Positions 5,717-60,398 of a stretch of DNA of 64,000 nt are shown one piece after another; within the stretch, counting starts at the first letter, position 1, and each line of letters begins with the position of its first letter. This DNA comes from an uncultured Eubacteriales bacterium (GTDB taxonomy: Bacteria > Bacillota > Clostridia > Lachnospirales > Lachnospiraceae), in assembly GCA_900315305.1 (NCBI GenBank), contig OMYS01000022.1, positions 1-64,000 of the forward strand, in the 5' to 3' direction. A program made the position numbers and the translations under genes. The notes below the pieces were generated by a model that saw only the letters and a list, made by a program, of their open reading frames with translations, was not told the DNA's origin and ran no database searches.

Positions 5717-7627
5717 ATGGGACAGAACTTCATTATCGAGGATGAGCTGAAGAAGCTTCCGAAGCAGCCCGGCGTCTATATTATGCACGACGCAAATGAT
5801 GAGATCATCTACGTCGGCAAGGCGGTCAGTCTGCGCAACAGGGTGCGGCAGTATTTTCAGAGCACGAAGAACAAGACCGCGAAGGTCATCCAGATGGTCC
5901 AGCACATCGACCATTTTGAGTATATCGTGACGGACAGTGAGCTCGAGGCGCTTGTCCTTGAGTCCAATCTGATCAAGCAGAACCGCCCGAAGTACAACAC
6001 CATGCTGAAGGACGACAAGACCTACCCGTATATCAAGGTCACGGTCGGGGAAATGTACCCGCGGATCATGGTCTCCCGCAGCATGAAGAAGGATTCCTCC
6101 AGATATTACGGGCCGTATCCGACGGCCGGCGCGGTCCGCGACACGATCGAGCTTCTCCGCAAGCTGTGCCACATCAGAACCTGCAGTATGAAGCTGCCGG
6201 AGAATCAGGGAAAGGACCGCCCGTGCCTCTACTACTACATCGGTCAGTGCCCGGCGCCGTGCATGAAGGACAGCATCCGGCCGGAGGACTACAGAAAGAA
6301 TGTCGATCATGTCATTTCCTTCCTGAACGGCCATGTCGGGCAGGAGGTCGATATGCTGACAAAGAAAATGCAGAAGGCCTCCGAGGAGATGCGGTACGAG
6401 GACGCCGCGGAGTATCGCGACCTGATCGAGAGCATCCGCGTCATCGGCGAGCATCAGAAAATCACGTCCGGGGACGGCGAGGACCGCGATGTCATTGCGA
6501 TTGCCACTGACCAGGCGAAGGAAAATAACAGCCATATGGACCGCACAGAGGCCGTGGCACAGGTCTTCTTCGTGCGGGACGGAAGACTGGTCGGGCGGGA
6601 GCATTTCTTCCTCACGACGGACGACGCGGACGACAAGCCGCAGATTCTCAGGGATTTCATTTCCCAGTATTATGCGGGAACGCCGTTTGTCCCGAAGGAG
6701 CTGATGATCGGAACTGACATCCCGGACAGGGAGCTGCTCGAGGAGATGCTGACGAAGCGACGGGGCAGCAAGGTGACGATCCGTGTGCCGCAGAGAGGCC
6801 TCAAGGAAAAGCTGGTGGAGCTCGCCCTCGAGAACGCGGAGAATACGCTTGCGCGCGACAGGGAGCGCCTGCAGAGAGAGGAGCTCAGGACGACCGGGGC
6901 CGTGAAGGAGATCGCAGACCTCCTCGGCATACAGAAGGCGGACCGCATGGAGGCCTTCGATATCTCGAATATCAGCGGCTTTGAATCCGTCGGCTCGATG
7001 ATTGTCTATGAGAAGGGAAAGCCGAAGCGGACGGACTACAGGAAATTCAAAATCCGGACGGTACAGGGACCGAACGACTACGCGTCGATGGAGGAGGTCC
7101 TGACAAGGCGCTTCAGAAGGGCCGAGGAGCAGTCCCCGGGCTTCACAAGGCTCCCGGACCTTCTGCTCATGGACGGAGGCAGAGGACAGGTGCATATCGC
7201 GGAGCAGGTGCTGCGGGACACAGGGTTTTCCTTTATACCGGTCGCCGGCATGGTCAAGGACGATTATCACAGGACCCGCGGGATCTGGTTCCATGACCGC
7301 GAGATTCCGATCGATAAGAATTCGGAGGGGTTCAAGCTGATCACAAGAATCCAGGACGAGGCGCACCGGTTTGCGATCACCTATCACCGGCAGCTGCGGA
7401 GCAAGGGGCAGGTCCGTTCCGTGCTCGATGATATCGAGGGGATCGGGGAGACGAGGAGGAAGGCTCTGCTCAGAAGCTTCGGCTCTGTCGAAGGCATCCG
7501 CGACGCCTCGCTCGATGAGCTTTCGCACGCGCCGTCGATGAACAGGCCGGCCGCCGAGACTGTGTGGAACTTCTTCCACGGGCAGAATACGCCGCAGAAG
7601 GCAGCCGTCACGGAGGAGGATGAATGA
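5717..7627 (+). CDS. uvrC: UvrABC excinuclease subunit C
   Basis: Makes both incisions in nucleotide excision repair, working with UvrB. The N-terminal GIY-YIG nuclease starts at PGVYIMHDANDEIIYVGKA (about residues 19-37). A UvrB-interacting UVR segment lies near residues 211-240. The RNase H-like endonuclease region includes LLLMDGGRGQVHIA, and the C-terminal helix-hairpin-helix GIGETRRKALL is near residue 575. The 636 residues match the family. An antisense reading frame of 675 codons covers it but has no family features. An inverted-repeat element has inserted at its stop codon. Confidence 0.97.
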   Translation: MGQNFIIEDELKKLPKQPGVYIMHDANDEIIYVGKAVSLRNRVRQYFQSTKNKTAKVIQMVQHIDHFEYIVTDSELEALVLESNLIKQNRPKYNTMLKDDKTYPYIKVTVGEMYPRIMVSRSMKKDSSRYYGPYPTAGAVRDTIELLRKLCHIRTCSMKLPENQGKDRPCLYYYIGQCPAPCMKDSIRPEDYRKNVDHVISFLNGHVGQEVDMLTKKMQKASEEMRYEDAAEYRDLIESIRVIGEHQKITSGDGEDRDVIAIATDQAKENNSHMDRTEAVAQVFFVRDGRLVGREHFFLTTDDADDKPQILRDFISQYYAGTPFVPKELMIGTDIPDRELLEEMLTKRRGSKVTIRVPQRGLKEKLVELALENAENTLARDRERLQREELRTTGAVKEIADLLGIQKADRMEAFDISNISGFESVGSMIVYEKGKPKRTDYRKFKIRTVQGPNDYASMEEVLTRRFRRAEEQSPGFTRLPDLLLMDGGRGQVHIAEQVLRDTGFSFIPVAGMVKDDYHRTRGIWFHDREIPIDKNSEGFKLITRIQDEAHRFAITYHRQLRSKGQVRSVLDDIEGIGETRRKALLRSFGSVEGIRDASLDELSHAPSMNRPAAETVWNFFHGQNTPQKAAVTEEDE

Positions 7628-7629
7628 GC

Positions 7630-7715
7630 GATATGTTCACACGCTGCCAGACAAGCGATACCGCCCTGATATTCGCAGAGTGCATACGATTCTGAAGGGC
7701 GTGTGCACTGTGGCC
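7630..7715. mobile_element. MITE-like family A element, 86 bp, with 8-bp target duplication
   Basis: Left end gatatGTTCACACGC and right end GCGTGTGcactgtggcc match the family's terminal repeats with changes. Internal ataccgccctgatattcgc matches the long copy at 47339-47536. The octamer gaatgagc flanks it on both sides (7622-7629 and 7716-7723), a perfect target-site duplication. The left duplicate contains the uvrC stop codon, so insertion occurred exactly at the gene end. Confidence 0.8.
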
Positions 7716-7754
7716 GAATGAGCCCTGAAATGGGCAGATTAGACAGCAGAGCGG

Positions 7755-19217: not shown

Positions 19218-19357
19218 GTTGCAGTTCACACGCTATCAGACATCGGAAAGCGGTCAGCGATATCAGGAGCGGTGAGGGCGTTATACGGAGGAGTCCGAAG
19301 ATCACCCTGAGCCGCTGTGTCAGCGGCGAAGGGAAGCTGAGGCGTGTGAACAGTAAT
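19218..19357. mobile_element. MITE-like family A element, 140-bp deletion form
   Basis: It opens GTTGCAGTTCACACGC and closes GCGTGTGAACAGTAAT. The internal sequence from gatatcaggagcgg to gggaagctgag is almost identical to the 198-bp copy at 47339, but the last internal third is missing. Flanks acctgcgt (19210-19217) and gcctgcgc (19358-19365) agree at six of eight bases, a slightly decayed target duplication. Most of the 313 bp between the SDR and PfkB genes is this element. Confidence 0.75.
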
Positions 19358-28949: not shown

Positions 28950-29100
28950 TGCGACAGCGCATATCAGAGCGGTGTCGGGCAGACTCCGTCCTCCTCAGCT
29001 TCCCCTCGCCGCTGACACAGCGGCTCAGGGTGATCTTCGGACTCCTCCGTATAACGCCCTCACCGCTTCTGATATCGCTGACGCATCCAGGCTCCTGCGC
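28950..29100 (-). mobile_element. MITE-like family A element, decayed ends
   Basis: From atatcagagcggtgtcgggc through cagactccgtcctcctcagc to ctgatatcgctgac it is nearly identical, in reverse orientation, to the core of the 198-bp copy at 47339. The outer terminal repeats are not recognisable and I find no target duplication, so the exact limits are uncertain. It fills the gap between the permease and tdk genes. Confidence 0.65.
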
Positions 29101-31881: not shown

Positions 31882-31932
31882 ATTTCAGCACCCGGACTCG
31901 GAACACTTCGCGTTCCTCGTTGTGGACTGACA
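31882..31932. repeat. Family B hairpin repeat
   Basis: Arm tttcagc, core actcggaacacttcgcgttcc and arm actgaca. Its core differs at only a few bases from 53148-53177 and from the reverse complement of 60352-60398. It lies between bmpA and the operon's ATPase gene. Confidence 0.6.
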
Positions 31933-37286: not shown

Positions 37287-37358
37287 GTTACAGTTCACAC
37301 GCTGTCCAACCCTGATATTTGCGACCGCACGCGATTTTTGGTGCGCGTGAACTGTAAC
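37287..37358. mobile_element. MITE-like family A element, minimal 72-bp form
   Basis: Opens GTTACAGTTCACACGC and closes GCGCGTGAACTGTAAC, with only ccctgatatttgcgaccgca-like sequence between. It is the 198-bp element with nearly all the interior removed. Both sides carry gggct, but in slightly different positions, so a clean 8-bp duplication is not visible. Confidence 0.75.
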
Positions 37359-47228: not shown

Positions 47229-47273
47229 ATTCGGCCCCCAGGCTCGGAACGCTTTGCGCCCCTGGGTGCTAAT
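47229..47273. repeat. Family B hairpin repeat, diverged copy
   Basis: attcggc and gctaat arms enclose ggctcggaacgctttgcgcc, which matches the core of the other copies. It sits behind the pepF start in the 763-bp pepF-pflB gap. Confidence 0.45.
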
Positions 47274-47338
47274 TATATTTAATCACAGTTCACGGAGAAG
47301 AACAACGTCACGTCTTCTGCGGGGTGAGGACCCGGCGG

Positions 47339-47536
47339 GTTACAGTTCACACGCCATCAGACCTCGGTGAACGGTCAGTGATATCAGGAGCGGTGAGGGC
47401 GTTATACGGAGGAGTCCGAAGATCACCCTGAGCCGCTGTGTCAGCGGCGAGGGGAAGCTGAGGAGGACGGAGTCTGCCCGATACCGCCCTGATATTCGCG
47501 ACCGCATGCGACTTTGGATGGCGTGTGAACTGTAAC
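47339..47536 (+). mobile_element. MITE-like family A element, full-length 198 bp, with 8-bp target duplication
   Basis: The best copy. A perfect 20-bp terminal inverted repeat (GTTACAGTTCACACGCCATC at the left, its complement at the right) bounds it. Inner arms gatatcaggagcggt and accgccctgatattc also pair, and ccgctg/cagcgg forms a small central hairpin. The octamer cccggcgg occurs directly outside both ends (47331-47338 and 47537-47544), a perfect target-site duplication. There is no coding capacity. It lies upstream of the pflB promoter. Confidence 0.9.
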
Positions 47537-47612
47537 CCCGGCGGAGCTCTCCGGAGCCTGCCACCATCTCAGACCGGAATGGTATGACCTCCATCGCAGA
47601 TTTGTATCCAAA

Positions 47613-50171: not shown

Positions 50172-50270
50172 TTAATAAGCATACCTCAGGAAACTGATGA
50201 AATCAGGGCGGAGAGCTTGCTCTCCGAACGGTTTCAGAAGCTTTCTGAGTATGAATGCTGAATCGTTACG
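50172..50270. repeat. Long hairpin repeat after pflB
   Basis: ctcaggaaa with tttctgag, and gcggagagc with gctctccga, form a 65-base hairpin framed by agcatac and gtatgaatgct. It ends gctgaatcgttac, like the family B tails. The same hairpin design appears at 53208-53275. Confidence 0.5.
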
Positions 50271-51187: not shown

Positions 51188-51196
51188 TGATTCTTT

Positions 51197-51298
51197 GTTA
51201 CTGTTCACACCGAATCGGAACTTTGGAAGCCATAAGCGATATCAGATACGTTGGAGGGCGTTAAGTGGAGGAGCCCGAAAATCACCCTGAGCTGTAAC
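51197..51298 (+). mobile_element. MITE-like family A element, 102-bp form, with 8-bp target duplication
   Basis: Begins GTTACTGTTCACACC and ends GAGCTGTAAC. The interior gatatcaga...ggagggcgtta...ggaggagcccgaaaatcaccctgag follows the left half of the 198-bp copy. The octamer gattcttt flanks it at 51189-51196 and 51299-51306, a perfect target duplication. With the neighbouring palindrome it occupies most of the 342-bp pflA-nhaC gap. Confidence 0.85.
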
Positions 51299-51453
51299 GA
51301 TTCTTTATCGCGGGTGCATGGTAACGTAATAAAGCAGTGACCACACGCCGAAACTTTGGTATACTCTTATGATAAAGGATTGCGAGAGCTGCAAAGCAGC
51401 AAAGCAATCCGCCGGGACTCAGATATTTACCGGAAAAAGGGGAGGATCAAAGT

Positions 51454-53121: not shown

Positions 53122-53137
53122 AACATAGAACTTGTTC

Positions 53138-53290
53138 GGCAACCCATACTCGGAATGCTTCGCGTTCCTTGTTGTGGGCAGACAGAGCGGCTTTGCCGCA
53201 TGTCTGTCCCTCAGAAAACTTCTGAATTCGTCCGGCGAGCAGGCTCTCCGTCCGAATTTCATCAGTTTTCTGAGAGGTGCTGATTATTAC
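53138..53290. repeat. Composite three-hairpin repeat after nhaC
   Basis: The first hairpin (53143-53178) contains actcggaatgcttcgcgttcc, the family B core. The second pairs gacag-gcgg with ccgc-ctgtc (53181-53209). The third (53210-53274) pairs ctcagaaaact with agttttctgag and resembles the hairpin after pflB. It ends gctgattattac. It fills the gap between the convergent nhaC and lysR genes and may act as terminator for both. Confidence 0.55.
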
Positions 53291-53311
53291 AACAAGAGCT
53301 GGAGGTCTGTC

Positions 53312-54373: not shown

Positions 54374-54521
54374 GTTGCTGTTCACACGCACCAAGGATCG
54401 CATGCGGTCGCGAATATCAGGGCGGTATCGGGCAGACTCCGTCCTCCTCAGCTTCCCTTCGCCGCTGACGCAGCGGCTCAGGGTGATCTTCGGACTCCTC
54501 TGGCAGCGTGTGAACCGTAAC
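54374..54521 (-). mobile_element. MITE-like family A element, 148-bp deletion form
   Basis: GTTGCTGTTCACACGC to GCGTGTGAACCGTAAC. In reverse orientation, from gcatgcggtcgcgaatatcag through ctccgtcctcctcagcttcc to cttcggactcctc it matches the 198-bp copy closely, then the distal third is lost. I find no target duplication. It makes up a third of the 460-bp lysR-AAA gap; the remainder holds no supported gene. Confidence 0.75.
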
Positions 54522-60351: not shown

Positions 60352-60398
60352 ATTCAGCTCTGAGGAACGCGAAGCGTTCCGAGTTTGGGGTGCTGAAT
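60352..60398. repeat. Family B hairpin repeat, best-preserved copy
   Basis: Perfect outer arms ATTCAGC/GCTGAAT and inner arms ggaacgc/gcgttcc around gaa. The reverse complement of its core, actcggaacgcttcgcgttcc, matches 31896 and 53148 onward. The remainder of the 326-bp gap up to the binding-protein gene contains an agagcttgctc stretch related to the hairpin after pflB. Confidence 0.65.

Follow-up and report, generated by a model that had tools for sequence, protein, structure and literature searches.

What are the short, related sequences that recur between the genes of this DNA, and what put them there? The stretch that we analysed, the window, comprises 64,000 nucleotides of one contig (G000:C56:1-64000) from a 2.5 Mb assembly in 108 contigs. 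We combined genome-wide searches of this genome, G000, with closer reading of sampled stretches, and compared it with its sister species G009, with G019, which belongs to the same genus, and with G436, which belongs to another. Our analysis indicates, with little room for doubt, that the copies are a non-autonomous foldback MITE family whose members inserted independently, before and after the species split, each insertion duplicating 8 bp of target.

The full-length copy provides the clearest example:

47331..47338, no strand: left target-site duplication, cccggcgg
47339..47536, plus strand: full-length MITE copy, 198 bp, a whole-length imperfect foldback with 22-bp perfect inverted ends; full-length copies elsewhere in the genome are 93-97% identical
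47537..47544, no strand: right target-site duplication, cccggcgg

Here the first-pass annotation had described a 198-bp element with inverted ends inside a cccggcgg duplication (47331-47544), and this is exactly what we find: GTTACAGTTCACACGC in inverted orientation bounds 47339-47536, and a perfect 22-bp inverted repeat spans 47337-47358/47517-47538. The same annotation had called the copy noncoding and self-folding, and indeed it folds back across its entire length at -111 kcal/mol (z = -11) and has no match in Rfam.

The remaining copies in the window are more worn:

7622..7629, no strand: left duplication gaatgagc of the 7630 copy; a single GAGTGAGC in G009
7630..7714, minus strand: short degenerate MITE copy, ~85 bp, absent in G009
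7716..7723, no strand: right duplication gaatgagc of the 7630 copy, one base outside the end
19218..19357, plus strand: 140-bp MITE copy, internally deleted; flanks agree at 6/8; absent in G009
28950..29082, minus strand: internal MITE fragment without terminal inverted repeats (TIRs), absent in G009
37287..37358, plus strand: 72-bp MITE copy with TIRs at both ends, without 8-bp duplication
51189..51196, no strand: left duplication gattcttt
51197..51298, plus strand: ACCG-ended subfamily MITE copy, right side deleted, gattcttt on both sides; interior as in L010:526-698 and L147:3948-4146
51299..51306, no strand: right duplication gattcttt
54374..54521, minus strand: 148-bp MITE copy with TIRs at both ends, without 8-bp duplication

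Seven sites bounded by inverted repeats had been proposed, and for some of them this description needs correcting. The copies at 37287 and 54374 do carry both TIRs, but 28950 is a fragment with neither, the left TIR at 7630 is one base short, and a deletion produced the right end of 51197-51298, leaving it no more than a degenerate TIR, while the gattcttt duplication around the copy is perfect. Likewise, of three duplications said to lie directly outside the ends, cccggcgg and gattcttt do so, but the right-hand gaatgagc, although both copies are present, sits one base off the end; the fourth copy, at 19218-19357, matches at six of eight positions as described. A scan of the window for the terminal 16-mer, allowing ≤3 mismatches, gave 11 matches, against a mean of 0.30 and a maximum of 2 in shuffled sequence.

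A second hairpin-made intergenic repeat of ~160 bp, with ends resembling TTCAGCACC/GGTGCTGAA, also occurs here, one partial copy lying ~60 bp from the 47339 MITE:

53137-53291; 31890-31932; 47236-47278: second repeat
50173-50249; 60363-60397, minus strand: second repeat

It is present in about ten copies at 79-88% in the sampled stretches of G000 and in one copy in G009, and is possibly another MITE.

Searching the whole genome and its relatives, a check that the first-pass annotation had suggested, shows the family to be dispersed well beyond the window. The 198-bp copy has 44 BLAST matches in G000, including six full-length ones at 93-100%; the TIR, at ≤2 mismatches, has 92 matches there against 1 for the reversed pattern. 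To count duplications we took TIR-bounded pairs of 30-260 bp (n=79; 38 in G000, 41 in G019). Perfect 8-bp flanks surround 13 of the 38 pairs in G000 and 21 of the 41 in G019, while flank repeats of 6, 7, 9 or 10 bp amount to one case in each genome, two in total. All 34 perfect octamers differ from one another, with no strong base preference evident among them. Thus the tabulation of flanking octamers shows a signal at 8 bp and none at the neighbouring lengths, and the earlier reading of the window copies as independent insertions, made because no two duplications agreed, holds for the larger sample. Roughly half of the TIR-bounded copies have no perfect duplication, which age, deletion or recombination may explain. 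Two nested insertions, at L166:1486-1666, where the second element's duplication CCAGGAGA overlaps the first element's, and at L163:3703-3882, with a similar overlap, show that elements inserted successively.

The sister species provides the sites before insertion. Contig G009:C88 is colinear with window positions 1146-30627 at 85-92% identity and lacks the 7630 element; at this site it has a single GAGTGAGC, against two copies of GAATGAGC in the window. In the same way a 67-bp element (L038:1501-1567) is absent from G009, which has ACATCAGA once against ACAGCAAA twice in the filled site. Empty sites lacking a single octamer had been named in advance as evidence against mobility; at both sites the single octamer is there, and the mobile-element reading survives. 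The copies at 19218, 28950 and L018 are likewise absent in G009, while one insertion (L015/L060) is common to G000 and G009, as expected of an older event. The copies are therefore of mixed age, some inserted before and some after the species split. Separately, G009:C20 (L062) is 99.5% identical over 1875 bp to a G000 locus (L139), where most other orthologous loci stand at 85-94%; this suggests binning contamination or recent exchange.

Insertions are biased towards intergenic DNA: 13 of 47 insertion sites in G000 fall inside ORFs of ≥200 aa, compared with 351 of 400 random window positions. This rarity fits selection against insertions into genes, and a choice of target by the element would look the same. 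Several contigs of G019 (C9, C33, C55, C82, C84, C194, C219, C271 and others) and of G009 (C29, C159) break in or at MITE copies, so that the family fragments these assemblies. Within the genus the TIR occurs in 4 of 42 genomes (G000, G019, G009 and, as one marginal match, G020), and across the wider family an exact match is found in 6 of 397. A 147-bp element in G436 shares these ends and lies within a perfect duplication, TACATATC, indicating that the core reaches beyond the genus.

What the copies have in common is remarkably little. A 12-bp core, GTTACNGTTCAC, stands at element ends throughout, and the foldback families of G019 (123 bp, 153 bp and shorter) share it around different interiors. 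Perfect duplications surround units of only 38, 41, 46 and 46 bp. Three positions distinguish the two 46-bp copies, which lie at separate sites flanked by different octamers, GGGAAATT and CTTTTTCG; the simplest reading is that the 46-bp unit itself moved. The 41-bp element, on G000:C84, lies ~0.8 kb from an FMN riboswitch (Rfam RF00050, 95 bits; L054:2359-2529). In G019 the two arms covary, 12 of 45 pairs having changed on both sides (44 cells, compared with 11.7 in shuffled and ≤6 in slid controls). Moreover, within its 123-bp family the centre of L092:1933-2056 is inverted relative to L079:1393-1516, and L159:4006-4128 is a chimera joining the arms of two subfamilies. Covariation, inverted centre and chimera would fit elements that exchange tracts or copy arms from one another, or palindromes that arose more than once; selection on the hairpin may be a further reading.

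Could the copies then be intergenic hairpins that work as RNA, be it as terminators, attenuators or small RNAs, and are maintained by selection, rather than mobile DNA? The extreme foldback energy, the arm covariation in G019 and the intergenic bias are what one would expect of such RNAs. The empty sites in G009, with their single octamers, contradict an RNA-element identity for the family, and we reject it. The octamer is moreover unique at every site, Rfam has no match, deletion variants of all sizes occur and the TIR is confined to 4 of 42 genomes in the genus, so that we consider this explanation highly improbable, while co-option of single MITE copies is possible. The MITE reading, on the other hand, accounts for the absence of coding capacity, the TIRs, the duplication of fixed length and the multi-copy dispersal with empty sites in relatives.

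How might such elements move? We propose that the core GTTACNGTTCAC at both ends would be recognised by a DDE-type transposase supplied in trans, which would make cuts 8 bp apart on the two target strands, and that gap repair would then duplicate the 8 bp. The interior is apparently dispensable for movement, since the core recurs around unrelated interiors and perfect duplications flank units of only 38-46 bp. We infer the DDE mechanism and the existence of the enzyme, and likewise mobilisation in trans, because no autonomous element with these ends occurs in any sequence searched. One could go further and suppose that what moves is the hairpin as such: an undescribed transposase needing only the 12-bp core at each end would move near-TIR-only hairpins of 38-46 bp, and arm-to-arm copying within elements, to which the tract-wise covariation, inverted centres and chimeras would be due, would keep making unrelated foldback families around a fixed core. 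We think this unlikely.

At 38-231 bp the elements are too short for a transposase, and the search for an IS with matching ends, also suggested by the first-pass annotation, was carried out and found none in the assembled genome. Its reading of the copies as a nonautonomous transposon with no transposase in the window is supported. No TIR pair with duplications exceeded 231 bp, and G000 has no TIR pair of IS size. TIR ends read in G000 enclose MITE-like interiors, the few exceptions being degenerate, chance-level matches. Profile searches of TIR-bearing genomes (PF00872, PF01610, PF06782, PF03050, PF13610) returned nothing in G000, where models for IS256, ISL3, IS66, ISLre2 and IS6 had no match; nor did an autonomous partner with the same ends appear in assembled G000 or in the stretches around TIR matches, draft assemblies being able to lack IS. 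A transposase panel compared by tblastn with 634 kb of stretches recovered only ISL3 genes already known, scans of viral contigs gave single matches without a partner end or relative, and plasmid and phage BLAST gave nothing relevant. A 1298-bp TIR pair on G019:C91, considered as an autonomous element, was rejected: ORFs judged by eye to be folate-pathway-like lie there between two MITEs, with no transposase. We also set aside an IS66-linked motif, TTGACAATTCACATA: it resembles the core, but nothing established it as the end of an IS, and a -35-like TTGACA lies within it.

Several IS families make 8-bp duplications, and on balance we favour a parent from one of these other than IS6 (IS256, ISL3, IS66, IS1595, IS1 or an undescribed family), absent from the G000 assembly. 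IS256, ISL3 and IS66 copies do occur in other TIR-bearing genomes, but all three are missing from G000. The IS256 family, with a duplication of 8-9 bp, resembles the MITE in that length and is present in some TIR-bearing genomes, but the ends we read there, GAGACTGTGACA or GAGACTGTGACATTTTTTCTG, are unlike GTTACAGTTCACACGC, and no IS256 copy in the other carriers shows the core at the ends that could be read. The IS66 loci of other carriers lack the core within the stretch read, which excludes part of their outer ends. Two ISL3 copies in G019 lie near contig ends, their termini falling outside the sequence read. An ISLre2 (UPF0236) transposase gave no match above cut-off in nine carriers, and control genomes likewise had none.

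The other reading is that the parent is a long clostridial IS6-like IS, with a transposase of ~410-500 aa that is cysteine-rich in its N-terminal part, whose ends have diverged to GTTACNGTTCAC, the MITEs being deletion derivatives or hitch-hikers. IS6 family members make 8-bp duplications and have a cTGTt motif in their ends (PMC7986276), and the long clostridial ones have atypical ends that seldom begin GG (PMC6807381). Three identical copies in G041, of the same genus (L185, L186 and L188; 1911 bp, 484-aa transposase), carry GGTAGTGTCAAG at their ends and are flanked by perfect duplications of 8 bp (aaaaacga, tagaaagc, ttagatat), and plasmid relatives in Levilactobacillus and Geobacillus, with ends GGTACTGTCAAA/GGTATTGTCAAA, also duplicate 8 bp. 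The long clostridial clades of IS6/IS26 (ISHahy6, ISTet2, ISCpe7 type), present in the genus in G041 and G045, resemble the MITE in the 8-bp duplication and in their outer bases (G.TA.TGT), and in one member the outer 8 bases match at seven of eight (GGTACTGT against GTTACTGT). But the similarity breaks off after ~8 bases, the inner half of the TIR being unlike the MITE's, and the ends read here start GG rather than GT. Position 6 of the MITE cores, too, is A or T. PF13610, a model that detects the long type weakly, has no match in G000, G009, G019, G216, G436 and G278, and no transposase of this group was found in genomes that carry the MITE. Since several families were compared first, some chance similarity is expected. 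By the similarity of its ends the long IS6-like group (8-bp duplications, ends GGTANTGTCAAA) is the best lead on the parent, speculative and unproven as it is, and we hold its parentage to be doubtful. The earlier statement that the parent is not assignable still stands, though with this lead.

More generally, the family is ordinary in kind and, as far as the searches reach, new in sequence, and its mobile units are unusually short. Like the bacterial MITEs described elsewhere (review PMC10969869; MITEAba12, PMC6382973), its members are short, noncoding, TIR-bounded, foldback, target-duplicating, multi-copy and mostly intergenic; unlike them, they have no known parent, and several interior families are built on one 12-bp core, with units down to 38-46 bp. 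In the literature searched we found neither GTTACNGTTCAC printed as a transposon end nor any link of MITEs to Lachnospiraceae. The elements offer a MITE system that is compact and open to testing, in uncultured Clostridiales of gut type, with shared and private insertions between sister species, very short units and several families on one core. Were the enzyme to be identified, natural copies would allow a direct reading of the minimal substrate that a bacterial transposase needs.
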